From Cordylochernes scorpioides (Eukaryota; Arthropoda; Arachnida; Pseudoscorpiones; Chernetidae): DNA of 64,000 nucleotides. The stretch is from contig CP092877.1 in NCBI GenBank assembly GCA_030710605.1, positions 1,820,936 to 1,884,935 of the forward strand, given 5' to 3'. Positions 17,401 to 64,000 of the stretch are shown here, in pieces (the first letter of the stretch is position 1; each line of letters begins with the position of its first letter). Made by a program: the position numbers and the translations under genes. The notes beneath the pieces were generated by a model. It worked only from the letters and a program-made list of their open reading frames with translations. It did not search any database and was not told the origin of the DNA.

Positions 17401-20400
17401 AAAATGAATTGGTCTTAAACTTGACACAGATATGGTGGGCCGAGAAATGACGAAGAATTGAACAGAAGCCGTGTTTGTGCCCAGGTTCGTTAGTTCCGAC
17501 CATGTCCAGACTGCTATGACCATCAATCCTCGCTTCTATGAAGTGGTAAGTTAGCTCCAATTCTATTTTCACAGACACCTTGTTTAATAAAATGCCAGTC
17601 AACCAGAATCGCAGCGGAATATTGCTTAATATTTTTTAAAAATTCAATTTTAAAAACTTTCATAATAATAAATTGCGCCAACTATACGATTATGGACCAG
17701 TCCAACTCCACAGGTGAGTGTTAAAAACCAAACAGAACTTGACACCCTGGAAGCGCAATATGTGTAGAGATTATATTATAAGGAAAACCTAACCCATCTC
17801 TGTCATGTGTACTTGGAACTTGCTTCAGTCCTTCAACATTATCATTATTGAAATAAAAAATGGCATATCCTGACCAGGAGCAACATGTGCTTTACAGAAG
17901 GCAGAGCGCCATCTGGTGGAAGCACATTTTGCTCCTGGTCAGGATATGCCATTTTTTATTTTAATATCAACACCTGACCTTTTTATTTTTTTATCATTTT
18001 TTCATTATTATTATTATTTATTATTATTTTTTTGGTTTTGCCAGCGCTCTTTTTATTAGGCCAAAATATAAAATTCTTAAGAAATTACGTTTTGAGTTTT
18101 AACATGAATGTGTTTGATTGTATGGCCTTGATTTTCCTTTTTTTTTCGGTTAAATCATTGTATGGTGGAATGTTAAATGTGACTATATGCCCTTTCATGG
18201 CGCAAAAAAGTTACTTTATTGATCTTATTTCCGTAAAGACTGAAGCAATCTTGTGTGAGGATACAAAATATTGGTTTGAAAATAAGTAGAATTAAATTTT
18301 TCCTATTTGTTTTTTTAGTTTGCCTATGTATGACATTTCAGAAGATACTATAAATCTTACGAGGTACTAGAGCGCCATCTGTTATCAAATTATAAAACTA
18401 TTTTAGAGGCGTAATATTCTTTTTAAAATAAAACAATTTCTACTGTCCTTACTGCGATGGAAAAATAAAAGGGAGGGCCTGGCTCATCAGTGGTGAACCC
18501 TCCCAGCGGTTTCGCCAGTTTTATTGGGTAATTTTCGGCACGATGTTTTAACTATTCTTCCCTGGATCCCTTTCTTCTTATTAAATAGCATGATTCTCTT
18601 TTCCGGTCCGAAATCTGGAAGATATCCACACGCTTCTTCAAATGTAACAGAAAAAAAAATCTTTCATTTTTCATACGACAGATAGTTCTAGTTAATGGTT
18701 TTAGTTAATTTTTCAAATTCCTGTTTATCCTACATTTTGCCCAGAAGGTGTTCGGTGTTGCAGCGGCGGAAGCTGGAGACCTTCAAGGTGCTGAAGGGCA
18801 GTGGGCAGCAGCGGACGTCGGGCAGCAAACGCGGGATCGTAGCCAGGCTGCGGGAGTTGTGCAAGGCCTTGGTGAAGTCCATCTTCTTCGACATCGTGAT
18901 CTTGATGGTGATCACAGGCAACTTGGGGCTATTCTTCTACGAACTGGCGCACCCGGACACCTTCACGCCTATCGAGAGCATGTTGATCAACTGCTGCTTC
19001 CTGGCGGTATACATCCTCGAGTGCCTCATCCGAGTGAGTGCCTCTCTATCTTAGTAGAGACTTTTGCACAGTGACAATATGTTTACAATACATTAGAGTT
19101 TTATTTTCTGTATTTACGTATATCTTTATGAAAAAATAATAGAAAAAATAAAATATAAAACTTCATAAATAATCCTAGATATGCAAAAAACAGCTTATAT
19201 ATATATATGTATAAATAAATATAATGGCATATACTGGATATAAATTATTAATCAGCTAGTATTTCTAGGGGCAATACGCCTCTCTTTATCAAGGCTTTTC
19301 TTTGATTTAAACTAAATCACGCGGGCATGTGATCCACTCACGTTATACAAGACTAAAGCGAGAAACCATTTAAATAAAATATATATAACTGTAAATACAT
19401 GATCACTTGAAATTTTATCTATTATTCCTGTAGAAGGGCAGCTTGCGCCCGAAAGCTCGAATGATTTTTCAAATAAAGAAACTTATCCTTTTTGAATCTA
19501 TTCGTTATTATAAAAATATAAAAATGTTAGGTTTTGATATTAAAAATAAAAAAAGGCATATCCTGACCAGGAGCACATGTGCTTTTCATTTGCGCCAACA
19601 GCGCGAAATGCGTTCGGGGATGGCTTTTCCTGATTTATCAATAAATTGGGTTGGCCAAATATCAGTGAACAGGCTAAAACGAATGTTTAGTTGATTTCTG
19701 TTCCACTAGATGATGCTCTACCATCTGAAAAGTACATGTGCTCCTGGTCAGATTATGCCTTTTTATTTTTAATATATCTTTATATAGTTCCGTACTCTGG
19801 CGATATTACATGTACTTTGGTTTATTAAATACATCACACGCTGTACATGAGTCAGACTAGTGTTAAGATGAGGTTGGCATAAAAAAGTCACAGATCGAGA
19901 ACATGTACACAGAGAAACTACTGCATCCTGAATCTGTCGTAGTCAATCTCCTGCAACCTGCTTCTTAAGCATGTGTCACATGCAACCTATTCCTTCGGCA
20001 GCCTTCGTTTTCTTAAGCATGTGTCTCCTGCAACCTATGCTTCCTACAGACTTCGTTTTCTTCGTCACGTGTCTCCTGCAACCTATGCTTCCTACAGACT
20101 TTGTTTCTTCAGTATGTGTCTCCTGCAACCTATGCTTCCTACAGAATTCGTTTTCTTCATCATGTGTCTCCTGCAAACTATGCTTCCTACAGACTTCGTT
20201 TTCTTCAGCATGTGTCTCCTGCAACCGATGCTTCTTACATACTTCGTTTTCTTCATCATGTGTCGCCTGCAACCTATGCTTCTTACATACTTCGTTTTCT
20301 TCGTCATGTGTCTCCTGCAACCTATGCTTCCTACAGAATTCGTTTTCTTCATCATGTGTCTCCTTCAAACTATGCTTCCTACAGACTTCGTTTTCTTCAT

Positions 20401-23400
20401 CATGTGTCTCCTGAAACCTATGCTTCTTACAGTCTTCGTTTTCTTCATCATGTGTCTCCTGCAACCTATGCTTCCTACAGAATTCGTTTTCTTCATCATG
20501 TGTCTCCTGCAACCTATGCTTCTTACAGTCTTCGTTTTCTTTAGCATGTGTCTCCTGCAAACTATGCTTCCTACAGACTTCGTTTTCTTCATCATGTGTC
20601 TCCTGCAAACTATGCTTCCTACAGACTTCGTTTTCTTCATCATGTGTCTCCTGCAAACTATGCTTCCTACAGACTTCGTTTTCTTTAGCATGTGTCTCCT
20701 GCAAACTATGCTTCCTACAGACTTCGTTTTCTTCATCATGTGTCTCCTGAAACCTATGCTTCCTACAGACTTCGTTTTCTTTAGCATGTGTCTCCTGCAA
20801 ACTATGCTTCCTACAGACTTCGTTTTCTTCATCATGTGTCTCCTTCAAACTATGCTTCCTACAGACTTCGTTTTCTTCATCATGTGTCTCCTGCAAACTA
20901 TGCTTCCTACAGACTTCGTTTTCTTCATCATGTGTCTCCTGCAACCTATGCTTCCTACAGAATTCGTTTTCTTCATCATGTGTCTCCTGCAACCTATGCT
21001 TCTTACAGTCTTCGTTTTCTTTAGCATGTGTCTCCTGCAAACTATGCTTCCTACAGACTTCGTTTTCTTCATCATGTGTCTCCTGCAAACTATGCTTCCT
21101 ACAGACTTCGTTTTCTTCATCATGTGTCTCCTGCAAACTATGCTTCCTACAGACTTCGTTTTCTTTAGCATGTGTCTCCTGCAAACTATGCTTCTTACAG
21201 ACTTCGTTTTCTTCATCATGTGTCTCCTGCAAACTATGCTTCCTACAGACTTCGTTTTCTTCATCATGTGTCTCCTGAAACCTATGCTTCCTACAGACTT
21301 CGTTTTCTTTAGCATGTGTCTCCTGCAAACTATGCTTCCTACAGACTTCGTTTTCTTCATCATGTGTCTCCTGCAAACTATGCTTCCTACAGACTTCGTT
21401 TTCTTCATCATGTGTCTCCTGCAAACTATGCTTCCTACAGACTTCGTTTTCTTCATCATGTGTCTCCTGCAAACTATGCTTCCTACAGACTTCGTTTTCT
21501 TTAGCATGTGTCTCCTGCAAACTATGCTTCTTACAGACTTCGTTTTCTTCAGCATGTGTCTCCTGCAACCTATGCTTCCTACAGACTTCGTTTTCTTCAT
21601 CATGTGTCTCCTGAAACCTATGCTTCCTACAGACTTCGTTTTCTTTAGCATGTGTCTCCTGCAAACTATGCTTCCTACAGACTTCGTTTTCTTCATCATG
21701 TGTCTCCTGCAAACTATGCTTCCTACAGACTTCGTTTTCTTCATCATGTGTCTCCTGAAACCTATGCTTCCTACAGACTTCGTTTTCTTTAGCATGTGTC
21801 TCCTGCAAACTATGCTTCCTACAGACTTCGTTTTCTTCATCATGTGTCTCCTGCAACCTATGCTTCTTACAGACTTCGTTTTCTTTAGCATGTGTCTCCT
21901 GCAACTTATGCTTCTTACAGACCTCGTTTTCTTCATCATGTGTCTCCTGAAACCTATGCTTCCTACAGACTTCGTTTTCTTTAGCATGTGTCTCCTGCAA
22001 CTTATGCTTCTTACAGACCTCGTTTTCTTATTACATTGAAAATCTAAATTATATATGTGCAAACTATATTCTTTTGAAACATACTTTACACCATACACAA
22101 GATTGGTAAGGTTATTTTTTGTCACCTTTAAAAATAAAAAGTATTTATTTATTTTTGAGATGAAAACTCAATATTTTGTGGAATAACATAAAGTTATTTG
22201 ATAGATTTATTCCATTTATCATAAATTCATTTAGCGTGTGACGCTAAATGCACAGAAATATTTTTAAGTGTGACTCGAAACTTTTCTCACCACTGTATAC
22301 ATTATTTTATAAAACTACTATAAAAAATAGTATTTTAGTATATGTTATATCAATAGATGGCTTTGTTCTGTACGACATCCAGTTTCGACTTAACATTCCA
22401 ATAAAACAAACTCCATCTGTTAAACGTCAAGTATGAGTAGAGTGGAGAAAATGATCAGAACAGACCATGTAACTGAACTGTTCAAGGTTCCATCTATTGA
22501 AATTAATATCATTAATATTTTCCTGTGAATATCGGCTTAAATATGTTCTTGATAAATCAAGACGGGCCAATCATGCACATGTTTCTGGCTGTCGGCTCTC
22601 GTCAGTGTGGTGTAGGCTCAACGATCCACCGAAGGGTTATAGATTATTTTCAAAAATTAATTGATCAACATAAATGTTAGCCAACACTAAATTCGGTGAT
22701 TTCTGAAAGCCTGCGTATAGGAGCTGTTTCTTTCCGGCGAAATAGTCTTCAATCCTTCTGAAACCGTGTCTGGCGATGTGCGTTTGAGAAAGGCAAAGCT
22801 TGTTTTACATAAAATAATCCTCTCTAACACGTCCTTCGTTGTCCCAACCAGATCATGGCTTCCAGTTTCATGGAGTACATCAGGCAGCTCCTGTATCAGT
22901 TCGACTTCTTCATCATCCTGGTGGGGCTGCTGGAGATCGGCCTCACTCTCTCCCTGGAGAACCTCGCCTTCTTCCGCCAGGGCAAGTGGGTGCTGCGCTC
23001 GCTGCGCTTCATCGGCTTCGTCAAGTTCCTTCGCTTCTTCTCCATCATGCAGGTGAGACGGGCCTCGTAGCTCAGGCAATACTGGCAGCAATTATAGAGA
23101 GAATAAATGGACCATCTCTGAGAGTACGAAGTTCTTCGTAATATCGAAGGCTGCTTTATAAAGTTTCCAAGATTCAATTATATATTTCCTCATACCTTTT
23201 TTTTTTTTTCAAATCAGCTTTGGAGTTAAATTTAATGAATTTAAAAAAGTCTATCACAAAAAGTAAGTTAACATAATTAAGTATAAAAAATGTAGAGAGC
23301 GCCTCAAATTTAATAAAAAACATATATGTAGTATTTCTATAGATGTGAAAAAAGAAACTGCAGTCGTTTGTGGCCGTCTCCACCTCAGTAATCCTCTCTT

Positions 23401-26400: not shown

Positions 26401-29400
26401 GTCTGAGACAAACAGGAGTTTTATCCTTGAGTCTTAACCTGGGGGGATCTACTTTTAATGGTCTAATATTATATTTGTTTTCACCAAAAATATCATTATA
26501 GCGACTTAATAAAATGTAGAAATTATTCTTAAGTTTGTCATCATTATTTAGATAGCTGTCTTCTAGATTTGGCAAGGGTAAGGGTCGAAAGTTTGGTTGG
26601 TAAACGAGTTTAGATTTAAAACAAGAGGGGACATTTATGTTATATTGATCAATAGTTTTATCTAAAAGAGGTAACTTTTTTATGTTTTTACATTTTCCTG
26701 AAAGTTTTAAACAATAATTATGTTTTTTACAATATTTAACATTATTAGAAACACCAAAATATATATTTTTTTGAGTTATCACAATATTGCAAAGCATTGA
26801 GTTCATCTTTAGAAAATGTATATTGAAATTTGTATAAAAACACATTATTTTGCATAATAACATTCTCATCAAAATCAATCTTTAGGTTAAAATATTTCAG
26901 GTACTTAGTGGATACTATCAGAAAATTCAAATTTGGATTATCAATAATATAGAACAACATATTGTTAGTTATATCTCCAATTCTGATCGTTAAACAAATT
27001 TGTCCAAATATTCCAATACGGTTATATACAGTGCTAATCATATTAGGTGTGTTTGTGTGTTGTCGACCAGAGTTATTTATCTTATCTAAAAGGCATTCAG
27101 GTAATAGGTGTATGGAAATAATATTAATGTCACTGCCTGAATCAAAGAGCACTAAATAGGTTCCCAAGAGCAATGAATCTACCCCAACGTCACTCATCAC
27201 TCCCGGGCACCATAATTGTTGCCTTACATTACCTCTAAAGTCTTGGTAAAACTGCTTTCGCCGGGTTTCTTGTCGGTCGCCAACCTCTCTGCCGGGGCGG
27301 GCACCTGAAGGAAGAGAATCCTGTGAAGGCGTTGCATTCCTTGAGTCGACATTTTGAAAATCCCATCGATCACCATTAAATGGTGAAGATATCTCTTCAT
27401 GTCGAAATCCTTCTTCCAGGGAAGATGCGATCTTAATCCACATGTCCAAATTAACTGGATTGGCAGCGATCAAAAATGGCCTCAGCTTTGCGTTTACATT
27501 CGAAGAAAGCGCTTCCAGGGTCTGCTCCGAACTTATATTCAAGATTTTTGCCAACTTCAGTTTATTAAAGTAGTAGTCCATAAGGGGTTGCGATGGAAGC
27601 TTCTTTTCAGTCCAAAACTGCCTCATCAATCCACTTGTCGATACCGGGAAAAATGTATTCATAGCTTGGTGAAGTTCATCCAACGTAAACACGTCCTGGC
27701 ACATAGAGGCGTATATCTCTAACGCTTTCCCTTTAAAAATGCTTGGGATCATTGACAGAGCATCATTTTCTGAAATATTTTGGAGCTTGACTGTTCTTTC
27801 AAAAAGATTTCGCCATTCCTGATACGTAAGGCCTGTATCCGGGTTAAAAATTGGCAAGATTTCCCTAATTGAAATGTCCACTCTCGCTCCGGTAACAACC
27901 TCTTCTTTCGGTAAAGTTTTCAAGTCTTTTTTCGATGTCATTTCGACTTTATTTCCCGTAGGTAGCGATCCTGTCGGCTAGCTGTAGTATTTCTATAGAT
28001 GTGAAAAAAGAAACTGCAGTCGTTTGTGGCCGTCTCCACCTCAGTAATCCTCTCTTTATTTTTTTCAAATCTTTTTTAAACAAAACAAAAATTTACATAC
28101 ACCATTTAGTTAAATCTTTAGTAAAAAAAAAAAACAAAATAAAATTTACATTCTATCATTCAAAATGTATCATATATGCATTTAGGTTAGTTGTTGGCAT
28201 TGTTATAACTTTTATAACTCTAATGAGACCTTGTCTTAAGACTGTACTATTTAGCCACGTAGACACGGTCCCCTAAGTGGTCAATAAAGACATGTTTGTG
28301 GTTATAGTTTATATTTTCATAATTCATGTGATAATTAAGTGACGTGTGTGCAGCCCTTCATGGTCCGGTTCATGAACCACCATATCAACCAGAAGCTGCT
28401 GGACAGCTATGACCTAGGGCAGGGATTCCTTATTGCCCAAGAGGAGGTGAAGGAGAACCTCGAGTTTCTGGTAGAATACAAGCCCATCATCAACCAGTAC
28501 AAGCATTGGATGGACAACAACCGTATCAATGTAGGTGACACCACAGTTGGTAGATAGATAACCATACTCTTGTTATATCGTGCTTTCTCCTGTAGAAGGG
28601 CTTTCGTGACAGAAAGCTAGAGGTTTTTGAATCTAGGTACTACAGGCGGTGGATGGACAACAATGGCATCAATATAGGCCATACCTATGCCGTTGATGGA
28701 AAGCAATGGTATCAATGTAGGGGCACCACACAAGAGGTGAATGTACAACAATAGTATCAGTGTAGGGGGGGCACCACACAAGAGGTGAATGTACAACAAT
28801 GGTATCAGTGTAGGGGGGCACCACACAAGAGGTGAATGTACAACAATGGTATCAATGTAGGGGGGGGCACCACACAAGGGGTGATTGTACAACAATGGTA
28901 TCAATGTAGGGGGGCACCACACAAGGGGTGAATGCACAACAATGATATCAATGATGTAGGGGCAACACACAGCCCCTGGATGGACAGCAATGGTATCAAT
29001 GTGGGTACCGCACAGGCGATGAATTGTATGACAATGATATCAATGTAGGGGAGGGGGTACCACACAGGGCAACTACGATATCCTTGTAGATGTCAAACTT
29101 GGTGGATGAACAACTCTAGCTACCCACATAACTAGTCAATAAGTAGTACAAGCGGGCCATGGCTGTGCACAGATAGTGAAGCAGCTAGTGACCCTGCAAC
29201 GCACCAACCCTGACATCGTGGCCGCGGCTAAGACCCGGGTCGGAGCCCGCATGGTGCTGAACGACCTCCTGTACAGCCTGAAGGAACGTAAAGAACTCGG
29301 CATGCTGGACGAGAGTGAATTCGTCATTCTAGGAGAGGTGACTCTCTCTGCTACCTTTCTTGATTTTGAATCCAAGACCGCACACACACATCACACACTT

Positions 29401-32400
29401 TATTTAACAATTGAACTCAAATAGGCCACTGTGAATCAGGTCAATTGTTAGAACTGTTTTTAGATTATTTGCTTCAGCACACACAACACTTAGAGTAATA
29501 TATTTTCAGAAAACTAAATCTCTATTAAAAATTTAGAATACAGAATATATGAATCCTGTTTATCATTCCGAGGACATGAATCTATAAAATTACTCTGCCC
29601 AGATAATCGAGAGCAAGGTGAAGGACCTGGCCAAGGCCCCCAACAGCATCGTCCCTACCCTCAAGCCAGTGCAGCTGCTCAGCAAGGTGGAGTGGCTCAA
29701 CAGTATTCTCATCGTACGTTTCCTGGAGGTAGGTTGTATTGAGGAGCTCTTAGTTTTAATACTCCTTAAATCCTGTCTAATGGGATTCTATAAACCCAGA
29801 AGGGACTCCATTAGCCTCTCTTTTATCAAGACCCTCCGTGCGAGGTGTAGGCTTCATCATACGTGAGGTGTCACTGCTCAGAAACAACACGGCGAATCAA
29901 GACTAAGAAGTCGAAAAACATTCCTGGTAGCAATAACTACCAGTACTAATAGAGGACATTGGAGCGACCATTGATAAATTTTGCAAAATGTTTCAGGCTT
30001 CATTATTTTAATGCCATGCGCATGTTTATTATGATCAAAAAGATGTACTAATATATTTGGGAAGTAAGGAATGTTTGTGCGTCTAAACCTGTCTCCTTAG
30101 AGAAACATTGTGGTAAATTATCTAACGAGGGAGAACACCTGTCCTGTGGACCGCCACACGGTGAGTGGAATCTAGGAGATCGGCCAAGGTCTGTGGACCA
30201 TGAAACATGGCGTCGCCTGCCAAGCCGGTATAGCTCACGCCAAAAACTTGGTATAATCCAGTAATGTTTTATGTATTTTATAAATTCTCGATATAACGAT
30301 TCAGCCACCTCAGTACGGCTAGCATGGAATCACACTCCAAACCCAGATCCCCATCTCACACCCTACATTTTTCTTCTACTTTTAACATACCCCAAATTTC
30401 ATTCCTACCTTTTAACATACCCCAAATTTAATTCCTACGTTTTAATATACCCCAAATTTCATTTTTACGTTTTAACATACCCCAAATTTCATTCCTACGT
30501 TTTAATATACCCCAAATTGTATTCCTACGTTTTAATATACACCAAATTTCATTCCTACGTTTTAATATACCCCAAATTTCATTCCTACGTTTTAATATAC
30601 CCCAAATTTCATTCCTACGTTTTAATATACACCAAATTTCATTCCTACGTTTTAATATACCCCAAATTTCATTCCTACGTTTTTACATACCTCAAATTTC
30701 ATTCCTACGTTTTAATATACCCCAAATTTAATTCCTACGTTTTAATATACCTCAAATTTCATTCCTACGTTTTAATATACACCAAATTTCATTCCTACGT
30801 TTTAATATACCCCAAATTTCATTCCTACGTTTTAATATACACCAAATTTCATTCCTACGTTTTAATATACCTCAAATTTCATTCCTACGTTTTTACATAC
30901 CCCAAATTTCATTCCTACGTTTTTACAGGCCCCAAATTTCATTCCTACGTTTTTACATACCTCAAATTTCATTCCTACGTTTTTACATATCCCAAATTTT
31001 CCCTCTACTTTTTAACAGACAGCGGGATACAAGGGCTGTACAACAGAGAGAGAGAGATTTGAGATTTTTAAAATATTTTTATTGACATCATACACAAGTC
31101 AATGGTAGCATAGATATATAAAAAGAGAGATAATTAAAAATACAACAACAACAACAAAAGCCTTTATTGAGGACCTCTCGTCCTATAAAGGATTCGCCAG
31201 TTTACAGAGTAATTGAAGAGAAGAGAACTAAGAATACAGAGAGAAACCTATAAGTTAGTAGGTATAGTATAGTATTTTCTACACTGTAACTATATACAAC
31301 AGCAGCAACAAGCCTTTTACTGGAATCAAAGTCCCATACATGATTCGTCATTTTAGTCCTGAAAAAGATTATTTACATATAATTATTTACATCAATTAGA
31401 TTATGTATATAGCTTCCTTTTCTCTTCAGCCGTCTTCCAAAATTTGAACAACGCAAACGCTCCAGCTCTGTTTCTCACCACCTCCTTCAACAGGAGCTCC
31501 AAAGAGAGTCCCTCAAGGATAATTAAAAATATATATAGATAAAATAAAAAAGTAAGCTATTTACAGGTATATAAAGTCCAGGAGACTCCCCCAACGACCA
31601 ATAGTCCTCCTCCAGACAGTAAGAGAGAGTGAGAGGTGGCCATAGTTATAAATATTCCTCCATTTGTGACGTCTCACGTGAGTTAACGAAGCCATTCTTT
31701 CTTTAATCGAAAATGAATTATTTAAAAATGATTTATCAAATATTTTTCCATTAAAAATGCTATAGAAACCTTTCCATTTTAAAAGTGTATGTGTTTAAAA
31801 ATTATGAATAATTTTAAAACACTACTTTTAAATTTGTAAGTAAATTCTATATATAGAACGTAAGGATAGCGTTGGCAGTGTGTACCAGTCCAGCCTTGGG
31901 ATAAGTAAAGTCTTGTTACATAAAAAGACTTTTGCTAATATAGTTTTATCCTGACAAATAAAAAGTATTTGTTTAAAACAAAATTCATCTAATTAAAAGC
32001 TATTTCTAGATAATGGACATTGCGACTGCTGTGATAGATATGCATGGAGACATCTGAGGCTCTTCATTTGACACGACAACAACAAAAGCTATTTCTATAG
32101 ATCTTATATAACGAAAAATTAAAATTTAATGAGGGAGAGCATGGTTCATCAGTGGTGAATCTCTCTACTATTGTATTAGACTGAATTTCTTGTATGTTAG
32201 GGAGTACAGTAAATGGAAGGTTTAAGAGATATATTGACATATGCTTCTAGGACTTCGAAATATATGCCATAATTATTCTTCCGCAAATAAGCCTGTTTGC
32301 CAACATACTAAATATACCGGTCTAATTGATTAAATTCTCAAAGTTGCTGGTAAATTTCACCACTGTAGTAAGCCATGCCCTTCTAATGTTTTTTCTAATA

Positions 32401-35400
32401 GAATAAATAAGGTGGTCTGGTGAGGCCTCTTTGGCCCTGTAGATTGTACATTGTGGGAAGGCCTTTACACCATCCTGGAAGAGGAGCGATCTTGTATGGC
32501 CAGTTTTGAGCCTGGAAATACAGGTTGCTGCTTGTCAGTTCATCCCACATTCTAGAATAGCTCCAGGCTTTTGTTTCAGATACCAATGATGGAATGTTGA
32601 CTCCTGTATTTTTGTTTGGATGTTTCTTTTTTTGTAGGGGTTTGAAAAGGTCGAAATCAAGGATTTCACCAATTGAACAGTTGAGTGGGTTGAATACAGA
32701 TAATTCAGAACATCATATTAAAGATAGAGGTTGCCTGGCCGCGGCATTCATAGTTCTTTAAAATAAAAGACACTTCGGCCAGAAATGCTTTTATTTTCTC
32801 AACGTTTCGACAAAAATATTTTGTTCTCGTCAGGAAAAAGAAAAATTAAGAATTTGGCGTTAAAAATGATGCTGAGGTTACAAGGGCGTTCTCACGCCAA
32901 CTTGAAGGGTTCTTAATTCGAATTGAGGCATTTTTAAAAAATAAATATTTTCACTGTACAAGTCCAGCTCCACAGAGAGTACAAGTAAATATACGGGGCT
33001 CTGGCACCTTGTAAGTGTAAACTGCTTCTATATGTGCTGACCCGTGATACGCTGAAAGTACAAACCCCTACTTCACATTATTATCTTTTGGCCTCTCCCA
33101 AATAATATAACATATTAATGGAAATTTTAATGTTGAATTAAATATGTCAAGAATTCGAAACTATTATAGACGCGTATTATTCTTTTATAAATCAAACAAT
33201 ATCTACAGCCCTTACTGCAATGGAAAAATTAATGGGAGGGCCTGGCTCATCAGTGGTGAACCCTCCCATTAATTTTTCCATTGCAATATGGGCTGTAGAT
33301 ATTTTTTAATTTCTAAAAGAATCATACGCATCTATAATAGTTTCGGATTTTCATAACAGATGGTGCGCTAAGGCATCATAATACAACAAGCATTAAAGAG
33401 AGATATTGTCACACAATGCTAGGTACACAAAGGCAGATATAGCCCCCCACCTAGCATTGCCCCTGTTGCTGCAGCCCCATCTCCAGTTTGAGACCTTCAC
33501 CACCGAGTCCATCATCCACGAGATCGACAGCATGTGCAAGGGCATGCGGCTCATCAAGTCCGGGATTGTCATGGTGAGTTGGCATTGCTTGTGCGAGATA
33601 TATTCTGACACCTGCTCTGCCGTGAAACCAATGGAAATAAACATGGTACTTTTTTTAAACGCTCTTGCAAAATATTTTTAGAAAACACTCTTGCAGAAGC
33701 ACCTTTTTCTTTGGTACTACCTGCAAAGGTTCGACGTAAGCGGCAGGCAATTTGTTTCGCAGACTTATCTTAATATTAAGTTATATTTTACCTTTTTAAT
33801 TCCCAAGAATGCATTGGGCAAAATTACCCGAGGATCTTCATTGAAGTATTCTACAAGTATATAACAATAATGATCACACAATAGGTACTTGTGCCATTTT
33901 ATAAAGCTGGTAAGGACCTTTGGTCGTTTTGTGTGGAATTCTAGAAACACACAGATAAAGCACAGAAAGGAAAACTATCCATATGCAGTGTTATGGACGG
34001 AATAGTCTCTAGCTCTCTGCCTCTAATAACATAAAAAGGAAGTTGATGTTATGGAGTTTAGATGAAGTTGTACATGAAACAATTTTACCTGAAATATTTC
34101 TGTACATCACCGTAGGTTGCTATCTATCCACCATCTATGCAAACATTTTATGCAAATCACTTCTAAATTATCTATTTCATTTCTTTGTGAATATAAAGGC
34201 AGAGAGAGAAGCAATATGAATAATTTAGTGAAAAATAGAAATCAAATTCTATAGAGAAGATAAATTAGGGGAAAAAACGCTTTTTATATATAATTGAAAA
34301 TTATATTTAATTGTTGCCAGAAAAAAAAAAAAAACTTCCGAAGAATGAAAGTGAGGGTAGCGTACCTGTAGTCTATAAGTGGAGTAGTTTGTGCTATCCC
34401 ACGGCGGTGTCCTAGGTTCAAGGCCAGGTAGAAGCGCAAGAAGACGAAGCACTTCCCAACGTCGACACCTTCCGCTACTTCGACGCCGAGGAGGAAGTGA
34501 AGGATCTCTTGAGCGTTGGCCACACGCTAGGTCTGATGGGAGTGCTGACCAACAAGCGCTTCAAGACGGAGGCCGTGTGTTTAACGGAGGTGGAGGTACG
34601 TAGTCCGCGATACTTACACTACAGTTGTCTGTATGTCATAGAGGCCGTGTGTTTAACGGAGGTGGAGGTACGTAGTCCGCGATACTTACACTACAGTTGT
34701 CTGTATGTCATAGAGGCCGTGTGTTTAACGGAGGTGGAGGTACGTAGAGTCCGCGGTACTTACACTACAGTTGTCTGTAGGTCATAGAGGCCGTGAGTAT
34801 GACAGAGGTGGAGGTACGTAGTCCGCGGTACTTACACTACAGTTGTCTGTATGTCATAGAGGCCGTGAGTATGACAGAGGTGGAGGTACGTAGTCCGCGG
34901 TACTTACACTACAGTTGTCTGTATGTCATAGAGGCCGTGTGTTTAACGGAGGTGGAGGTACGTAGTCCGCGGTACTTACACCCCGGTTGTCTGTATGTCA
35001 TAGAGGCCGTGAGTATGACAGAGGTGGAGGTACGTAGTCCGCGGTACTTACACTACAGTTGTCTGTATGTCATAGAGGCCGTGTGTTTAACGGAGGTGGA
35101 GGTACGTAGTCCGCGGTACTTACACTACAGTTGTCTGTACATCATAGAGGCCGTGTGTTTAACGGAGGTGGAGTTACGTAGTCCGCGGTACTTACACTAC
35201 AGTTGTCTGTATGTCATAGAGGCCGTGTGTTTAACGGAGGTGGAGGTACGTAGTCCGCGGTACTTACACTACAGTTGTCTGTACATCATAGAGGCCGTGT
35301 GTTTAACGGAGGTGGAGGTACGTAGTCCGCGGTACTTACACTACAGTTGTCTGTACATCATAGAGGCCGTGTGTTTAACGGAGGTGGAGTTACGTAGTCC

Positions 35401-38400
35401 GCGGTACTTACACTACAGTTCTTGTGTATGTCATAGAGGCCGTGTGTTTAACGGAGGTGGAGGTACGTAGTCCGCGGTACTTACACTACAGTTGTCTGTA
35501 TGTCATAGAGGCCGTGTGTTTAACGGAGGTGGAGGTACGTAGTCCGCGGTACTTACACTACAGTTGTCTGTACGTCATAGAGGCCGTGTGTTTAACGGAG
35601 GTGGAGGTACGTAGTCCGCGGTACTTACACCCCGGTTGTCTGTACGTCATAGAGGCCGTGTGTTTAACGGAGGTGGAGGTACGTAGTCCGCGGTACTTAC
35701 ACCACAGTTGTCTGTATGTCATAGAGGCCGTGTGTTTAACGGAGGTGGAGGTACGTAGTCCGCGGTACTTACACTACAGTTGTCTGTACATCATAGAGGC
35801 CGTGTGTTTAACGGAGGTGGAGGTACGTAGTCCGCGGTACTTACACTACAGTTGTCTGTACGTCATAGAGGCCGTGTGTTTAACGGAGGTGGAGGTACGT
35901 AGTCCGCGGTACTTACACTACAGTTGTCTGTACATCATAGAGGCCGTGTGTTTAACGGAGGTGGGGGTACGTAGTCCGCGGTACTTACACTACAGTTGTC
36001 TGTACGTCATAGAGGCCGTGTGTTTAACGGAGGTGGAGGTACGTAGTCCGCGGTACTTACACTACAGTTGTCTGTACATCATAGAGGCCGTGTGTTTAAC
36101 GGAGGTGGAGGTACGTAGTCCGCGGTACTTACACCACAGTTGTCTGTATGTCATAGAGGCCGTGAGTATGACAGAGGTGGAGGTACGTAGTCCGCGGTAC
36201 TTACACTACAGTTGCCTGTACGTCATAGAGGCCGTGTGTTTAACGGAGGTGGGGGTACGTAGTCCGCGGTACTTACACTACAGTTGTCTGTATATCATAG
36301 AGGCCGTGTGTTTAACGGAGGCGGAGGTACGTAGTCCGCGGTACTTACACTACAGTTGCCTGTACGTCATAGAGGCCGTGTGTTTAACGGAGGTGGAGGT
36401 ACGTAGTCCGCGGTACTTACACTACAGTTGTCTGTAGGTCATAGAGGCCGTGAGTATGACAGAGGTGGAGGTACGTAGTCCACGGTACTTACACCCCGGT
36501 TGTCTGTACGTCATAGAGACCGTGTGTTTAACGGAGGTAGAGGTACGTATTCCGCGGCACTTACACCCCGGTTGTCTGTATGTCATAGAGGCCGTGTGTT
36601 TAACGGAGGTGGAGGTACGTAGTCCACGGTACTTACACTATAGTTGTCTGTACATCATAGAGGCCGTGTGTTTAACGGAGGTAGAGGTACGTAGTCCGCG
36701 GTACTTACACTACAGTTGTCTGTACGTCATAGAGGCCGTGTGTTTAACGGAGGTAGAGGTACGTAGTCCGCGGTACTTACACTATAGTTGTCTGTATGTC
36801 ATAGAGGCCGTGTGTTTAACGGAGGTGGAGGTACGTAGTCCGCGGTACTTACACTACAGTTGTCTGTACATCATAGAGGCCGTGTGTTTAACGGAGGTGG
36901 AGGTACGTAGTCCGCGGTACTTACACTACAGTTGTCTGTACATCATAGAGGCCGTGTGTTTAACGGAGGTAGAGGTACGTAGTCCGCGGTACTTACACTA
37001 TAGTTGTCTGTATGTCATAGAGGCCGTGAGTATGACAGAGGTGGAGGTACGTAGTCCGCGGTACTTACACTACAGTTGTCTGTACATCATAGAGGCCGTG
37101 TGTTTAACGGAGGTGGAGGTACGTAGTCCGCGGTACTTACACTACAGTTGTCTGTACGTCATAGAGGCCGTGTGTTTAACGGAGGTGGAGGTACGTAGTC
37201 CGCGGTACTTACACTACAGTTGTCTGTACATCATAGAGGCCGTGTGTTTAACGGAGGTGGGGGTACGTAGTCCGCGGTACTTACACTACAGTTGTCTGTA
37301 CGTCATAGAGGCCGTGTGTTTAACGGAGGTGGAGGTACGTAGTCCGCGGTACTTACACTACAGTTGTCTGTACATCATAGAGGCCGTGTGTTTAACGGAG
37401 GTGGAGGTACGTAGTCCGCGGTACTTACACCACAGTTGTCTGTATGTCATAGAGGCCGTGAGTATGACAGAGGTGGAGGTACGTAGTCCGCGGTACTTAC
37501 ACTACAGTTGCCTGTACGTCATAGAGGCCGTGTGTTTAACGGAGGTGGGGGTACGTAGTCCGCGGTACTTACACTACAGTTGTCTGTATATCATAGAGGC
37601 CGTGTGTTTAACGGAGGCGGAGGTACGTAGTCCGCGGTACTTACACTACAGTTGTCTGTATGTCATAGAGGCCGTGTGTTTAACGGAGGCGGAGGTACGT
37701 AGTCCGCGGTACTTACACTACAGTTGCCTGTACGTCATAGAGGCCGTGTGTTTAACGGAGGTGGAGGTACGTAGTCCGCGGTACTTACACTACAGTTGTC
37801 TGTAGGTCATAGAGGCCGTGAGTATGACAGAGGTGGAGGTACGTAGTCCACGGTACTTACACCCCGGTTGTCTGTACGTCATAGAGACCGTGTGTTTAAC
37901 GGAGGTAGAGGTACGTATTCCGCGGCACTTACACCCCGGTTGTCTGTATGTCATAGAGGCCGTGTGTTTAACGGAGGTGGAGGTACGTAGTCCACGGTAC
38001 TTACACTATAGTTGTCTGTACATCATAGAGGCCGTGTGTTTAACGGAGGTAGAGGTACGTAGTCCGCGGTACTTACACTACAGTTGTCTGTACGTCATAG
38101 AGGCCGTGTGTTTAACGGAGGTAGAGGTACGTAGTCCGCGGTACTTACACTATAGTTGTCTGTATGTCATAGAGGCCGTGTGTTTAACGGAGGTGGAGGT
38201 ACGTAGTCCGCGGTACTTACACTACAGTTGTCTGTACATCATAGAGGCCGTGTGTTTAACGGAGGTGGAGGTACGTAGTCCGCGGTACTTACACTACAGT
38301 TGTCTGTACATCATAGAGGCCGTGTGTTTAACGGAGGTAGAGGTACGTAGTCCGCGGTACTTACACTATAGTTGTCTGTATGTCATAGAGGCCGTGAGTA

Positions 38401-41400
38401 TGACAGAGGTGGAGGTACGTAGTCCGCGGTACTTACACTACAGTTGTCTGTACGTCATAGAGGCCGTGTGTTTAACGGAGGTGGGGGTACGTAGTCCGCG
38501 GTACTTACACTACAGTTGTCTGTAGGTCATAGAGGCCGTGTGTTTAACGGAGGTGGAGGTACGTAGTCCGCGGTACTTACACTACAGTTGTCTGTAGGTC
38601 ATAGAGGCCGTGTGTTTAACGGAGGTGGAGGTACGTAGTCCGCGGTACTTACACCCCGGTTGTCTGTATGTCATAGAGGCCGTGTGTTTGATGGAAATGG
38701 AGGTACGTAGTCCGCGGTACTTACACTACAGTTGTCTGTAGGTCATAGAGGCCGTGAGTATGACAGAGGTAGAGGTACGTAGTCCGCGGTACTTACACCC
38801 CGGTTGTCTGTACGTCACGGAGACTGATTAGTATGAATTTTTCACCATTACTAGTATCGACACCGCTCAGTGTACTTCATGAATAAAGAATAGACCCCTT
38901 TCTAAACATATTTCTTCGCGTCGCTTGGTACACACGTCCAAACTATCAAATTGCGAAAAGTTCAAGAATTTCAAGAAGAGATAGCCGGTTCAAAGTGAAT
39001 TAGTTCACCGGGCGCTATCCTAGACCATCTCGCACTCTCCAATTAGATTTACTCCATCCAATCAACCACTTTGGGTCCCTGAGGACTTGGCAACCCTAAC
39101 CACTCCAGCTTAATTCAAACATTTTTTAAAATTAGGAGTTGAACTCAGAATATATAATTTATAAAACCTTTTTCACACATATGGGAATTTAAATTTGCAT
39201 ATTGATAAGATTAGATGTTAATGTAATCTTTTTGGAGTAAAATATATGTATTAAATATAGTTTATATATATTTTTACTTTAAAATATTTTCTCGCAAAAT
39301 TAACTTATTTCTAAACATACAAGAGAATATAATGAGACAATATATATTAAGTTGTATATGTAAAACGACATTTAAAGATTATCCCGCATGAGTTTCTTTT
39401 CAACGAAAAATCAAAATTTATTTTAAGGAGAAATAACGATTATTTCTAACTTTAGGGATGAAGTATGAAAGGATGAATTGTGAAGAGTAATGATAAACGG
39501 AAAAATAAAAGTGTCCAGGAATGGGAAGTTGAAAAGAAACTCATGCGGGATAATCTTTAAATGTCGTTTTACAATCACAAGCCGCATTATATTGTTTTAT
39601 ACGTTGTTTTTTTTTATATATTGGAGATATTACAACAACAAACACAACAACAATAGCCTTTATTGGGCACACGTGCCATACAGGATTCTCCCTGTAGAAC
39701 AGAATAAATAAATAACAAATTAGCATCGTAGTTATATACAAATATTGGGTATTGACCTCGACCAATTATCGAGTTGGATCCGGTGTCTGTCTTAAATATT
39801 TTGATTGAGCTGATTTCCAGTATTTATAAAAAGCGAATGCAAAGGGTCTGGATTTTACGACTTTTGCCATTAAAACATAAGGCGAATTGCTATTATAGCC
39901 GGTCTCTTGACGAAGAATTTCTCTCTCTTCTTCCATTGCCGTACAGTATATGGAGATATTACATATTCAATATAACGAGAGAACTAAGCGCGCCACATGT
40001 GTTATAAGAAATCAAAACTATTTTGACGCGAATGAGTCTTTTTGAAATTAAACAATTTTCTACTGCCCTTACTGAAATGCTAAATCAATGGGAGGGCCTG
40101 GCTCATCAGTTTCGCCAGTTTAATCTACCATACCGCTGTAATATTGCATTTTGTTGTTTTCCTTTTATACCGATACTGAAGCTGACCTCTTGGAAAAGGT
40201 ATTTTAAATGAACTATGGACATAAGCCTTTGAGGACAGTAGAAATACACATATTTATTGATAATGCCACGTGAAAAATTAGGGAAGACAAAAACTTCAGG
40301 AGGAAACAAAATTTATTTCAGGCAAGAACAAACTATCAATTGTAAACAAAAGATAAGCCACGAGGGAAATTTACAGAGTTGCAAGATATAAACATAAAAA
40401 TGACCACTCTGTTAATAAAAAATAATAAAATTAATAAATACTATGTTATATAAATAAAATTAATAAATACTATGTTGCATAAATAAAATTAATAAATACT
40501 ATGTTACATAGCTTCTTCCCTATGGGAGCTGTGACCCACAGCTAGCAATTATTGTAGATACTGACGTGGATTTGACGTGCTTCTGCCAAGTCTTGGAACT
40601 TTGTCCCTAGTACCTTTGTGTCCTTTTTCTTGCGGGGTGAAGAGCGGCTTTGTCGTCCTATCGTCGTCTATAGGGACATCGTCCATCTTGGAAGGAAGTC
40701 TTGGCTTTGACACGGCGGTGGAATCCTGGAGCCAATCTCTAAAAATGTGGATCACAGCACCCATGGCTTCAAATTCTTCTCGGCGATCTTCAGTTTGTCT
40801 TCCCTAACTTACCCAGCATCTCCACCAAAATGCCACGTGGAAAATTAGGGAAGACAAAAACTTCAGGAGGAGACAACAATTTATTTCAGGGAAGGACAAA
40901 CTATGAATGGTAAACAAAAGATAAGCCACGAGGGAAATTTACAGAATCGCAAGATATAAACATAAAAATGACCACTCTGTTAATAAAAAACAATAAAATT
41001 AATAAATACTATGTTACATGCATTAATGCGTCGTCTATTATAAAAAGTGGAACGATTTTAGACACGTATATTTATTTTTGAAATTAAACAATTTTCTACT
41101 ACCCTTACTAAAATGATAAATTGTGTGTATTTCTGCTGTTCTCGAGATCTATGTCTATAGTTCATTTAAAATACCTTTCCAAGAGGTCAGCTTCAGTATC
41201 GGTATAAAAGGAAAACAGCAAAATGCAATATCACAGCGGTATGTTGAATAAATTATGGAAACCGATAGGAGGGTTCAACACTGATGAACCAGACCCTCCC
41301 ATTAATTTATTATTGCAGTGAGGGTAGTAGAAATTGTTTAATTTCAAAAGAATCATATATATGCGTCTAAAATAGTTTTCATTTATTATAAAAGAGTTAA

Positions 41401-44400
41401 ATATCTTCCCCACTATTTCCTGTAGTTATACGCCAAGTATGGGTGTTTCAGACTATATTCATTCCAATCAAAATAATCCAGAAGACCTTTGAAGAATTCA
41501 AGAGGCCCAACAGCTTCCAGTATAGTCTCTGGCGAGTGGCGGCCATCAAGATTGCCATTCCTTTTATCAGGGCGCATCCTTTCTACCAGGTGGGTTGTCC
41601 TGGTGTTCCTTGGTAAACTTCAGTACACCATTCCACCAAGCAGGTTGTCCTGGTGTTCCTGGGTAAACTTCAGTACACCCCATTCTACCAGGTATGTTGT
41701 TCTGGTGTTCCTGGGTAAACTTCAATACACCATTCTACCAGGTATGTTGTTCTAGTGTTCATGGGTAAACTTCAGTACACCATTCTACCAGGTGGGTTGT
41801 CCTGGTGTTCCTGGATAGATTTTAACACCCAATTCTACCAGGTAGGTTGTCCTAGTGTTCCTTGGTAAACATAAGCACACCCCATTCTACCAGGTAGGTT
41901 GTCCTGGTGTTCCTGGGTAAACTTCAGTACACCACTCTACCAGGTGGGTTGTCCTGGTGTTCCTGGATATATTTGAACCCCCCATTCTATTAGCTAGATT
42001 TTCCTAGTGTTCCTAGATAGATTTCAGCGCACCATTCTAACATGTAAGCTATCCTATTATGTCTCTGTGTAGCCTTTAGCGCATCTCTACCGAGGAGGTT
42101 TCTCTGGGTTAATCGTAGCTCACTTGGGTTATCATAAGGATATACTTCAAATAGGTAGAATGTTATACTTGCCTGAGTATTTTTAATCATACTATGTGAG
42201 TCGCTCTAGGTGGGTATTTATGTATAATCTATCTATATGCGACAACTTTAGCCAATTACCTTTGGCGCAATAACAAAAATAATAAATATGATATAATAGG
42301 GAAATAATCACCTCAATGTATGTGTGATAGGGCTGGCCCATCGAGCGCATCAAGCTCCGGCTGGAGGACGCCGTCATGCCCGATGTCTCTCAAGTTGATC
42401 ACTTCATCATCGACCAGGGCATCGACGATGTCATCCTGATTCAGGGCATCGCGGAGAACCAGTTCACCCAGGAGATCTTCCGCGGACCCAAGATGATCCC
42501 AAGGTCGACCGACGGACTCTATTTCCCGGTAGATAAAATATATTTTTTATTCTTCTCACTGCATGTGTTTGCGTTTAAAATCTTCTGTTGTGGAACATAA
42601 AAATGGAAAAGTCGGGGTGGACGACAGCATGTGGAGTTATCGGACAGTTTCTGTGCGTATGGCGGTCTGTGGGAAGAAAATTAGCTTCTATGTGAATCAT
42701 AATAAACGAGGCTAACAAAGAAGTTTCTAAGAGTGTAATGGCCAGTGTAATTGGCAGGGCAGTTTCTGATTGGAAAATGTCCTAAGTCTGTAAAGATTCT
42801 GCCCTTAAGGTCTGAGTATGTATAACGTCGAAGTGAGCAGGGAAGCGCCGAGACCCGCATCCTGCCCCTCATCCTGGTGATTAACAACGAGCGCCACGTG
42901 AGCCGCAAAGACGAAAGTGGCGACGCGGGAGGACGCTCCGTCTTCACTACGGCGTCTCGCTACAAGGCCTCCAACCACCTCTCCTTCGACTCACTCGTCT
43001 CTTCTAAGGTGACGCTCATTACCAGTAGTTGATCGCGCTTTTGTGATTCTTCTATAATGTCTCTCTTTCCCACAAACATATGAGATAATTTGGCTTTCCA
43101 ACCATGACGACAGCGTCTTTATCGTGTCAAGTCATGAATACTTCGCTACAAGGAGCTTGTTGATGTTACTTAAGTACAGACCATGATAATAAAGGCGAGT
43201 AGGGGCTTGGGGCAGCTTTTTATTGTAAGTTTATTGTGCGCCTATAAAGAAACAGCTTGACTTCGCACTTACAAGGTGCCAGCGCCTCATTGGTGGAATT
43301 AGACTTGTGAAACCGGGTTTCATTGAAGCAATTTAAAATATTTATTAATAAATACTACTCAAAACTGCACTACGTCTATTTTAATCTCAGGTCCTGGTTG
43401 TCAACAAAGTATACCATCCGAGTCTTCCATTATATTTGTAGTTTCACAAACCCTTCCTATTTGTAGGTCTTACAGCTCTGATTTAAAAGATAGTATATTT
43501 TCAATAAAGAACTGTTTATTATTTAGTTCCGTCCACGGGTATATATTAATCACCAACCTGTGAACGGAAGATTCCACCTGAAGGTTCAATGTGCAGCACA
43601 AGGCGGACGCAGCCGGCAGGAAGAATATCAAGGGGGCCGCCGCGGTGGAAGGTCCCAAGGAAGGGCCGCACGACTACTTCATGATGGAGGAGACAAAGGA
43701 GTCTAACCTGAGCGACATGAGCAGCGAGGACTCGGACGACCTCTACATGCAGTCGTACGACCTGGAGGAGGATGACGAGGCCATCCTCATGAACTACAAC
43801 CGCCGCAGGGTTTCCATGGCCGTCGTGAGTAGCGCACCCAACTAGCCATACGTCTAGAGACTGACTAAATCCCGATTGTCTGTACTTTGGTCATCTCTCT
43901 TCCCCAATGTAGCTGAGTCAGACTTTATTCAACCGAACTTGCCCAGTTTCACCCATTGAACCGAAAAATATTGAATCTCTAGATGAATCAGGATATAACA
44001 GGACAGTTTCTGGGTGTATGACGGTCTGTGGAGAGAAAGCCAGTTTCTAGGTAAATCACAGTAAACGAGGCTAACAGGACAGTTTCTAAGAGTGTAAAGA
44101 CCAGTGTGATTGGCAGGGCATCCGTAATAAACTTCCAACCTAGACTCAATGATGAACTTAATCATAGTTTTCAGAGTTAAATGACGATCAATTATATCAA
44201 ATAAGGAAAGAGGCGTACTTGGATCTATATAAGAAATAGAAAAATTGATATTTCGAGGCATTTTATCGAAATGAATACTATGAACATATCTGTAATCTGT
44301 TTAATTTTTCAATTGAGAAGCAGCAATATGTGTATAACTATTATTTAAACATCTCAATAAATCTTCATGTATTACTAGACACAGAAAAGTAACTACACCC

Positions 44401-47766: not shown

Positions 47767-49254
47767 CACTGGTGTCCAAAAAATAATAAACTTTTGTTTT
47801 TTAATGATATGTTTTAAAATATACAACTCTAAAAGCTAAAAAGTAATTTAATCAGGTATTTTAAGTCGTAGAATTTATTTATCGCAACCATTCGATTAGG
47901 TAAAATTGAAAATATGCAAATTTTTGCTTGCCTCATAAGTGTGCTATTTGACGTGTCGTTTACCCCATCTAAGAATTGTCCAATTATAATTTTATTTAAT
48001 CCTTAGTTAATTATGAGTTTACGGAAAATGTTAGCAGATGATTTAAAATGGAGAGCTGTTGGAAGAATGGAGGCAGGGCAATCACAAGTTGAAGTAGCAA
48101 AATGGCTAAATGTGAATAAATCTGTGGTCAGCAAAATATGGAAACAGTTCATTGAGACAGGAACCATCAAAAGAAAAGAAGGTTCTGGTAGAAAAAGAAA
48201 AACAGCTACCTCTGAAGACCGTTATCTGGTCGTAACTGCCAAGCGCCATAGGGAGATGACAGCTATTCAACTCTCTAATGAACTCTCAAGTGCTACTGGA
48301 ACGAGAATTTCAAGACAAACTGTTTACCAAAGGCTTCACGAAGGTGCTCTTTATGCAAGACGACCAATGGTCTGTATCCCTTTAACCTCTGCTCACAGGA
48401 GAGCCCGCTTGAATTGGTGCTTGGAACATCACGCCTGGACTCATGATCAGTGGGCCAATGTTCTCTTCAGTGACGAGTCAAGATTTAGTTTAAACACAGA
48501 TTCTCGACGAGTTTTCATCTGGAGGGAGCCTGGAACCCGCTATCATCCCAGTAACATCAGGGAAATAGACAGTTTTAGAGGGGGCAGTCTCTTAGTCTGG
48601 GCTGGCATAAGTTCTAGCAGACGCACACTCCTCCACATTTTTCTGGGGGCACTTTAACTGCCCAAAGGTACAGGGACGAGATCCTTGAGCCCTATCTAAG
48701 ACCTTATAGAGATCAAATTGGTCACAATTTAATTTTTATGGACGATAATGCTCGTCCGCATAGGGCTAGGCTAGTCAATGAATATATCCAGAGTGAGAAT
48801 ATTCGAAGGATGGATTGGCCAGCCAGATCTCCGGACCTGAATCCAATAGAGCATGTGTGGGATGCTCTAGGGAGGCGTATTGGAGCTCGTCACCCCTCTC
48901 CCAGAACCCTCGTTGAGCTAAGAACTGCTCTATTGGAGGAGTAGGGTTTACTACCCCTGGACCTCCTCCAAAGCCTGGTAAACAGTATGAGGGCTCGCTG
49001 TGAGACCTTGATAGCTGTTAGAGGTGATCATACTCCCTATTGATATCTTATTTCTTTAAGATCTGGACCTTAGCTTTGGGTATGTTGGTAATAATTTGCA
49101 TATTTCATAATTTCAAATATTTTTTTATTTTCATATAGCTAGTCAAATTCTCCATAGTTTAAACTATTTGTATACTAAATTTTATATTTGTTAATAAATT
49201 AGCTTTTGAGAAATTTCGATATTGGTTAAGTTTCTTATTTTTTGGACACCAGTG
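47767..49254 (+). mobile_element. Tc1/mariner transposon, copy 1
   Basis: Inverted ends CACTGGTGTCCAAAAAATAA and its exact complement TTATTTTTTGGACACCAGTG, flanked by TA on both sides, 1,488 bases. It encodes a DD34E-type transposase, broken by a frameshift and a stop. Confidence 0.9.
48013..48990 (+). pseudogene. Tc1 transposase, frameshifted
   Basis: The first frame (48013-48657) holds a paired-type double helix-turn-helix (GQSQVEVAKWLNVNKSVVSK, later SNELSSATGTRISRQTVYQR) with a basic GRKRK between. The catalytic start VLFSDESRFSL carries the first Asp. One base missing in the T-run near 48641 (compare 52209-52215) shifts the frame, after which FMDDNARPHRA (second Asp) and DLNPIEHVWDAL (Glu) follow. 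A TAG at 48942-48944 replaces the codon that reads TGT in the second copy. It cuts and pastes DNA in the nucleus when intact; this copy cannot. Confidence 0.88.
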
Positions 49255-63074: not shown

Positions 63075-64000
63075 CGACTCACCTAGTATGAATAAAAATG
63101 CTGAATATTACGACAATGACACCACGGTTGGCCTAAGGAAGTCCACCTAGTAGAAGAAGTCATGAAAACTACTCAGGTAAGCAGAACCTTCTACCTGTTA
63201 GAAATATGTCCCTTTATTACCCAAGTGCGCTACGATAACCCAGAGATACTTCCTTGGTAGAGGTGTTCTAAAAGCTACCCAGAGAAACAATAGGATAGCT
63301 AACATGTTATAATGGTGCATTGAAGTCTACCAAGGAACTCCAGGAAAACCTACCTTTACAATGGTGTGCTGAAGTGTATTCTGTAACACCAGGACAACCT
63401 ACTTGGTAGAATGGTGAGCTTAAAACTACCCAGGAACACCAGGACAACCTACTTGGTAGAATGGGGTGTTAAATTGTATCAAGGAACTCCAGGACAACCT
63501 ACTTGGTAGAATGGGGTGTTCAAATCTATCCAGGAACACCAGGACAAACTACTTAGTAGAATGGGGTACTGATGTCTGCCCAGGAACACCAGGACAACCT
63601 ACTTGGTAGAATGGTGTACTGATGTCTGCCCAGGAACACCAGGACAACCTACTTGGTAGAATGGCGTGTATTTATGTTTACCAAGGAACACCAGGACAAC
63701 CTACCTGGTAGAATGGGGTATTAAAATCTATCCAGGAACACCAGGACAACCCACCTGGTAGAATGGTGTACTGAAGTTTACCCAGGAACGCCAGGACAAC
63801 CTACATGGTAGAATGGTGTACTGAAGTTTACCCAGGAACACCAGAACAACATACCTGGTAGAATGGGGTGTACTGAATTTTACCCAGGAACACCAGAACA
63901 ACATACCTGGTAGAATGGGGTGTACTGAAGTTTACCCAGGAACACCAGAACAACATACCTGGTAGAATGGTGTACTGAAGTTTACCCAGGAACGCCAGGA
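63075..64000. repeat. Mirror donor-seeded minisatellite, copy 2, continues past window
   Basis: Units such as 'caggaacaccaggacaacct' + 'acttggtagaatggtgtact' + 'gaagtttaccc', about 48-52 bases, in reverse orientation to the array at 41578-42215. About 17 units are visible against about 12 in copy 1, and units become more regular towards 64000, where the exon should follow. Copy number thus changed after the arms separated. Confidence 0.85.

Follow-up and report, generated by a model that had tools for sequence, protein, structure and literature searches.

Minisatellite arrays at splice donors of an SLC9C1-like gene in the pseudoscorpion Cordylochernes scorpioides

A stretch of 64,000 nucleotides (nt) of the pseudoscorpion Cordylochernes scorpioides (assembly GCA_030710605.1, contig CP092877.1, here C15:1820936-1884935), referred to below as the window, carries on its plus strand part of a gene for an SLC9C1-like sperm-specific Na+/H+ exchanger. 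In four tandem arrays of this gene, each repeated unit is built from the coding end of an exon, the GT splice donor and some of the following intron. The reading that we consider best supported, with a probability of about 0.62, is that the arrays are minisatellites of the ordinary kind, each founded by a tandem duplication that happened to span an exon/intron border and is tolerated by splicing, that the repeated donors are passengers, and that the cluster of four in one gene arose by chance, perhaps aided by the locus.

Arrays at four splice donors

The gene was identified by comparing the joined exon translations with the protein chains of solved structures. The 3' part matched sperm-specific Na+/H+ exchanger chains with E ~4e-48, and the 5' part matched SLC9C1-type chains with E 2e-25. 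The exon bounds on the acceptor side are mostly approximate, and 4 of the 15 donor positions are inexact in that no GT follows the position used. The features are listed in Table 1.

A preliminary description, made from the sequence alone, reported a minisatellite downstream of each of three exons, which end at 28530, 34595 and 41589, with the exon tail and the GT donor included in the unit, and all three are present. The fourth array lies in the same gene upstream of the window and adjoins the exon ending in ...MVYIATLLLR. All four are made of head-to-tail units within the minisatellite range of about 10-100 bp. The arrays had been said to begin exactly at the exon/intron border; they do adjoin the exon ends, but the 72-bp array begins 27 nt and the 50-bp array 9 nt inside the exon. 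Of the reported unit lengths, 72 and 50 bp were reproduced, whereas the array after 28530 has a unit of about 47 bp rather than 56 bp, and Tandem Repeats Finder (TRF) places its start only at 28704. In this array, a fragment of a dispersed repeat at about 28584-28632 splits the first, exonic copy from the remainder. The same dispersed repeat occurs elsewhere in the fetched region. Owing to this insertion, a scan for contiguous repeats does not score the 47-bp array as straddling the border. The array is degenerate, and the consensus of its unit no longer holds the donor consensus (GTAGGG instead of GTAGGT).

Table 1. Arrays and exons of the SLC9C1-like gene. Positions refer to the window unless C15 is named; copy numbers of the 72-, 50-, 47- and 42-bp arrays are TRF values.
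Feature	Position	Strand	Remarks
Donor-straddling array, 42-bp unit x 14.5	C15:1819363-1820190		31 exon nt + 11 intron nt; upstream of the window
Donor-straddling array, unit ~47 bp x 7.4	28504..29066	+	TRF core 28704-29066; exonic start approximate
Donor-straddling array, 72-bp unit x 59	34569..38817	+	27 exon nt + 45 intron nt; period of 24 codons
Donor-straddling array, 50-bp unit x 9.2	41581..42046	+	starts 9 nt within exon
50-bp array in inverted gene copy B	63311..64000	-	same unit as the array at 41581; continues past the window
48-bp array x 43	19962..22029	+	intronic, no border
30-bp array x 20.8	30376..30999	+	intronic, no border
29-bp AT-rich array x 3	40424..40510	+	intronic, no border
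SLC9C1-like exon	28354..28530	+	translation matches chains of sperm-specific Na+/H+ exchangers; the 47-bp array is seeded by its last ~27 nt
Next SLC9C1-like exon (KQLVTLQRTNPDIV...)	29180..29337	+	matches exchanger chains; start approximate
SLC9C1-like exon	34425..34595	+	the 72-bp array is seeded by its last 27 nt (GAGGCC...GTGGAG); start approximate
SLC9C1-like exon	41453..41589	+	last 9 nt (TTCTACCAG) are part of the 50-bp unit; start approximate
Next SLC9C1-like exon	42331..42527	+	matches exchanger chains; end approximate

The exon tails were aligned to the downstream introns, as the preliminary description had proposed, using the tail plus the donor against the following 175 nt. Of the 15 exon ends in the gene, 4 give a positive result, namely the three reported ones and that of the 42-bp array, and the other 11 are negative. 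When a 40-nt exon tail alone is used, 3 of the 15 ends are positive; the 50-bp array includes just 9 exon nt.

Further copies or half copies of the gene adjoin on C15: copy B on the minus strand, copy C (5' half) on the minus strand and copy D (3' half) on the plus strand. Most long aligned stretches are about 88-96% identical, and some stretches rich in arrays are lower. The copies differ mainly at third codon positions (1, 1 and 13 differences by position in the exon at 28354), which suggests coding constraint, as far as can be read from an exon list that was pre-filtered for such an excess. The copies may partly be uncollapsed haplotypes and would then not represent independent events.

The 72-bp array has 59, 52 and 14 units in the gene copies and the 50-bp array 9, 45 and 33, and the exon tail and the donor are intact in all three copies compared for each array. 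In copy B, the exon tail of the 72-bp array differs by a single synonymous base. A misjoining of the first units in the assembly could be imagined at a locus with several very similar copies, some of which may be uncollapsed haplotypes. However, the exon tail and the donor precede the same array in separately assembled copies, copies B and D have a shorter first 50-bp unit, and the insertion that parts the first from the later 47-bp units is found in the window's copy, in B and in D. Because the arrays recur in other copies with differing copy numbers, a local assembly error, which the preliminary description had named as a possible refutation, is very improbable.

The exon tails EAVCLTEVE, FYQ and MVYIATLLLR lie within stretches that align to sperm-specific exchanger chains. 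Because these tails can be aligned to the SLC9C1 of other animals, growth of the arrays started in the exon and proceeded into the intron. In the reverse order of events, an intronic array would have come first and a donor shift would later have extended the exon into it, which would leave a border of identical appearance; the alignment of the tails to SLC9C1, and of a further one described below to WDR26, of other animals shows that the tails are older than the arrays, and this order is largely refuted and carries hardly any weight.

The seven other counted arrays of the gene (66, 73, 25, 50, 48, 30 and 29 bp) straddle no border. The preliminary description had already set the 48- and 30-bp arrays apart from the rest, and this holds for them as well as for the 29-bp array. 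In copy B, at about C15:1901335-1903135, a single place matching the 48-bp unit stands where the window has the array; judged from this comparison, the 48-bp array has apparently grown from a single unit, the seed of which is preserved in copy B. Upstream of the window, a 25-bp array of about 158 units (C15:1812119-1816060) ends 24 nt ahead of the acceptor of the next SLC9C1 exon.

Frequency in the gene and in the genome

Fifteen arrays were found in the gene, and the tally of 11 used here excludes four tiny ones of 29-46 nt. When the 11 arrays were placed at random in the collapsed gene, 0.16 donor-straddling arrays were expected, and four or more were obtained with P = 3e-5. A sliding self-alignment scan of the introns, which overcounts inside long arrays, was excluded from the P values. 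The pattern within the gene is thus beyond chance, but the gene was chosen because the pattern was there. The frequency was also determined in other genes and with a motif search of the genome, which comprises 2.62 Gb in 24 contigs.

Dynein heavy chain and myosin genes served as controls. From 73 dynein matches, 40 exon ends and as many exon starts were taken, and from 76 myosin matches 25 exon ends; the selection excluded matches at the end of the profile, two long open matches and numerous near-identical copies. The fragments were placed by the ends of the profile matches; 5 of the 40 dynein fragments have no donor-like GT where it is expected, and visual inspection suggests that some myosin fragments end elsewhere than at a donor. 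One of the 40 dynein exon ends is straddled by a decayed array of about 32 bp, with a self-alignment score of 94 compared to 32 for the best of 12 shuffles. TRF alone gave 0 of 40 and is too insensitive here, as it missed this decayed array, which the tail test had flagged. Two other dynein fragments carry arrays that lie entirely within the intron, and none of the 25 myosin exon ends is straddled by either test. Among the 40 dynein exon starts, one has a probable duplication of about 50 nt across the acceptor (score 46, compared to 24 for the best of 20 shuffles), which rests on the self-alignment scan and on reading of the sequence. In the other genes, an array straddles 1 of 65 donors and, with some probability, 1 of 40 acceptors, and the two rates do not differ (P = 1.0). 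The array density of the same fragments predicts 0.56 straddled donors per 65, and 1 was seen.

Many of the dynein and myosin matches, the WDR26 locus described below and several arrays occur as pairs of nearly the same score, separated by tens of kb to 141 kb and in some cases inverted (on C3, C11, C13, C20, C24, C4, C10 and C1), with 98-99% identity in the two pairs measured; these are either recent local duplications or uncollapsed haplotypes.

In the motif search, three copies of AGGTRAGT at a spacing of 20-50 nt were required over the whole genome. This gave 2,679 matches for the donor motif, compared to 1,914 for the reversed motif and 2,910 and 2,614 for a permuted motif and its reverse. 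At a spacing of 51-80 nt, the donor motif gave 1,956 matches and its reverse 9,273; the latter word, TGARTGGA, is nearly five times as frequent as the donor motif at this spacing and sits in some large array families. Among the matches listed, the donor motif has 8 clusters in 148.5 Mb of C1, which is no denser than the controls with 13 clusters in 131 Mb and 8 clusters in 105 Mb. Donor-motif arrays thus show no clear excess over the controls genome-wide.

Among the matches listed for the two spacings together, 15 donor-motif clusters lie on C1, of which 14 were fetched, giving 12 loci after two copy pairs were merged; the C1 cluster at 220.98 Mb, a simple repeat, and the clusters listed on C2 were left out. 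The start of the array was reached at 8 of the 12 loci, where one has a clear exon end, two are ambiguous and five have no exon; at the remaining four it was not reached. The clear case is an exon of WDR26, in which an array with a 58-bp unit begins 42 nt within the exon, and the exon tail GGPNDIFIASGSE aligns to a solved WDR26 chain with E 2.4e-16. The open frame before the array at C1:29273634 had no match in the solved-structure search.

Arrays across a donor are thus present in no fewer than three genes of this genome, and also in human ABCA7; random birth of arrays can give such a rate.

Several results weigh against chance as the source of the cluster in the SLC9C1-like gene. When the placement of the arrays was matched for GC content, the expected number of donor-straddling arrays doubled to 0.33, and 4 of 11 arrays at donors still had P = 1.75e-4. 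The rate of 4 of 15 donors differs from that of 1 of 65 in the other genes (Fisher P = 0.004), and it does so when only contiguous arrays are counted (3 of 15; P = 0.02) or when the control rate is raised to its upper 95% limit of 8.3% (P = 0.03). No acceptor of the gene is straddled (0 of 15), and donors and acceptors differ with P = 0.05. Finally, the number of arrays, 11 in 47 kb of the collapsed gene, is little above the 4 in 23 kb of the control fragments, the latter having been counted with a more sensitive scan. As the number of arrays per kb is similar, a hot spot alone does not account for the excess. The introns of the gene have a GC content of 0.37 and the exons of 0.55, and 8 of the 11 arrays lie between 0.42 and 0.53, so that the GC-rich exon edges account for part of the excess. 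Arrays cover 149 of 565 windows in the introns of the gene, compared to 3 of 112 and 21 of 417 in the flanks, which mostly reflects the length of the arrays. On C15, which is 90.4 Mb long, the locus is found at 1.8 Mb. Overall, the excess at 4 of 15 donors, a pattern picked after the fact, is only partly explained.

The preliminary description had pointed to a mechanism tied to exon-intron borders, for example slippage at GT-rich donors. In such a process, transcription-coupled damage, an RNA:DNA hybrid near bound U1 or slippage at the donor would seed duplications far above chance. This would agree with the 4 of 15 donors and no acceptor in the SLC9C1-like gene, with the finding of the WDR26 array among just eight readable donor-motif loci on C1, two more being ambiguous, and with the decayed array at a dynein donor. 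However, the donor-motif arrays show no clear excess in the genome, and the other genes do not separate donors from acceptors; when this gene and the other genes are pooled, the comparison of donors with acceptors gives P = 0.22. We therefore regard a donor-directed birth of the arrays as unlikely.

Origin of the arrays and other features of the locus

If the arrays are ordinary minisatellites, the founding tandem duplication would have fallen across the exon/intron border, and the array would have extended from the exon into the intron. Such a duplication would be tolerated because splicing at the first donor would give an unchanged mRNA, whereas a duplication deeper within the exon would alter the protein. 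The repeated donors would then be passengers of the turnover of units. GC-rich exon edges amid AT-rich introns may raise the chance that a seed arises there. Four arrays in one gene would be a matter of chance, perhaps aided by the locus, and would have become visible since the window was picked for the pattern. The retention of donor clusters because they do not harm splicing, the weaker of the suggestions in the preliminary description, fits this evidence.

Selection for the donor clusters is not borne out. In a functional cluster, the many donors would aid or regulate splicing or would add in-frame repeats, 72 and 42 being multiples of 3. The 72-bp units are initially open in the frame of the exon, the GT is kept in most units, and in the 72- and 42-bp units the donor columns seemed more conserved than the average, a point that also speaks against donors as mere passengers. 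The latter did not hold when the donor window was ranked among all windows of the same size, where its ranks in 10 arrays were 20/72, 1/72, 10/72, 17/50, 42/50, 31/50, 8/42, 1/42, 24/42 and 31/47. Because the donor window is best kept in just 2 of the 10 arrays, no consistent selection on the donor cluster is indicated. In addition, the 47-bp unit has lost its donor consensus, and neither 50 nor 47 is a multiple of 3. A function of the donor clusters thus appears quite improbable. A coding expansion as the origin of the arrays was rejected on account of these two unit lengths.

The 72-bp array contains long open reading frames (ORFs) in more than one frame within 34569-38525 (123, 229, 352, 455 and 239 amino acids). 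The first of them shares the frame of the exon, so that use of inner donors could add repeats of 24 residues.

Upstream of the window, the first recognised SLC9C1-like exon (C15:1802772-1803193) is readable in two overlapping frames, and a frame change in the window's gene copy is possible there. More distant SLC9C1-like matches lie at C2:136284614-136285690, C21:4784788-4785861 and C8:60262412-60263479, in open frames of 790, 1208 and 1146 amino acids, and are apparently intronless across the matched part. A search of viral contigs with an exon confirmed no relative. At about 23330-28165, an intron of the gene contains an insertion of about 4.8 kb with similar ends and long ORFs on the minus strand (535, 240 and 410 amino acids), which by eye may be read as a retroelement of the long terminal repeat type; the single ORF tested had no Pfam match. 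A reverse transcriptase domain (RVT_1) at 8104-9567 and a Tc3-type transposase helix-turn-helix at 48007-48654 lie outside the recognised exons.

Comparison with known systems

A model of intron gain describes the tandem duplication of a coding sequence that holds AGGT, in which the duplicate is hidden by splicing (PMC4974935). The present arrays are similar in that an AGGT-containing coding segment is duplicated in tandem and splicing would conceal the duplicate. In the model as described, however, the new intron forms inside an exon, whereas here an existing donor and intron are carried along. The model also implies that the downstream exon opens with the duplicated segment. When the exon heads were compared with the 3 kb before each of them, none of the 15 acceptors, several of which are placed approximately, aligned above shuffles, and intron gain by duplication was rejected.

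Human subtelomeric variable number tandem repeats (VNTRs; PMC7608644) are also tandem arrays of variable copy number, and the present locus lies at 2% of its contig; they differ in being human, and exon borders are not mentioned in the cited account. If the locus is near a telomere, its enrichment in arrays would be in line with these VNTRs.

The closest counterpart is the VNTR in intron 18 of human ABCA7, a single array of variable copy number that is linked to the risk of Alzheimer's disease (PMC5954066). It includes the donor of exon 18, and its 25-bp unit, which opens with the donor GT, is present in about 12 to 427 copies. In ABCA7 RNA, one unit is retained by use of the second donor, independently of the length of the array, and the skipping of exon 19 increases with the length (PMC5954066). 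In the open-licence papers searched, this was the sole donor-including minisatellite found, and none of those listed surveyed a whole genome for arrays at splice borders. The preliminary description knew of no described class of such arrays, which is wrong at the level of cases; a donor-straddling array is already known, and the present ones are not a first case.

If about 1% of exons have donor-straddling arrays, splicing variation of the ABCA7 kind would commonly stem from such VNTRs, most of them unannotated, and annotation from short reads would miss or mis-splice them. If the local excess proved general, the birth of arrays would be tied to splicing or transcription. Although we give it little credence, the 5' splice sites of long genes might, at certain loci, repeatedly give rise to minisatellites through co-transcriptional breakage or slippage, the end of the exon itself forming the first unit; these would make up a class of donor-born minisatellites, with ABCA7 as a human member.

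The arrays of the SLC9C1-like gene resemble the ABCA7 VNTR as minisatellites of many units and variable copy number; all of them adjoin an exon and include its donor, the first copy of the 47-bp array being parted from the others by the insertion. By analogy, effects of the arrays on the splicing of the SLC9C1-like gene are plausible. The two systems differ in that the cited account of ABCA7 reports no exon tail in the unit, whereas here 9-31 exon nt are repeated in every unit and four such arrays occur in one gene.

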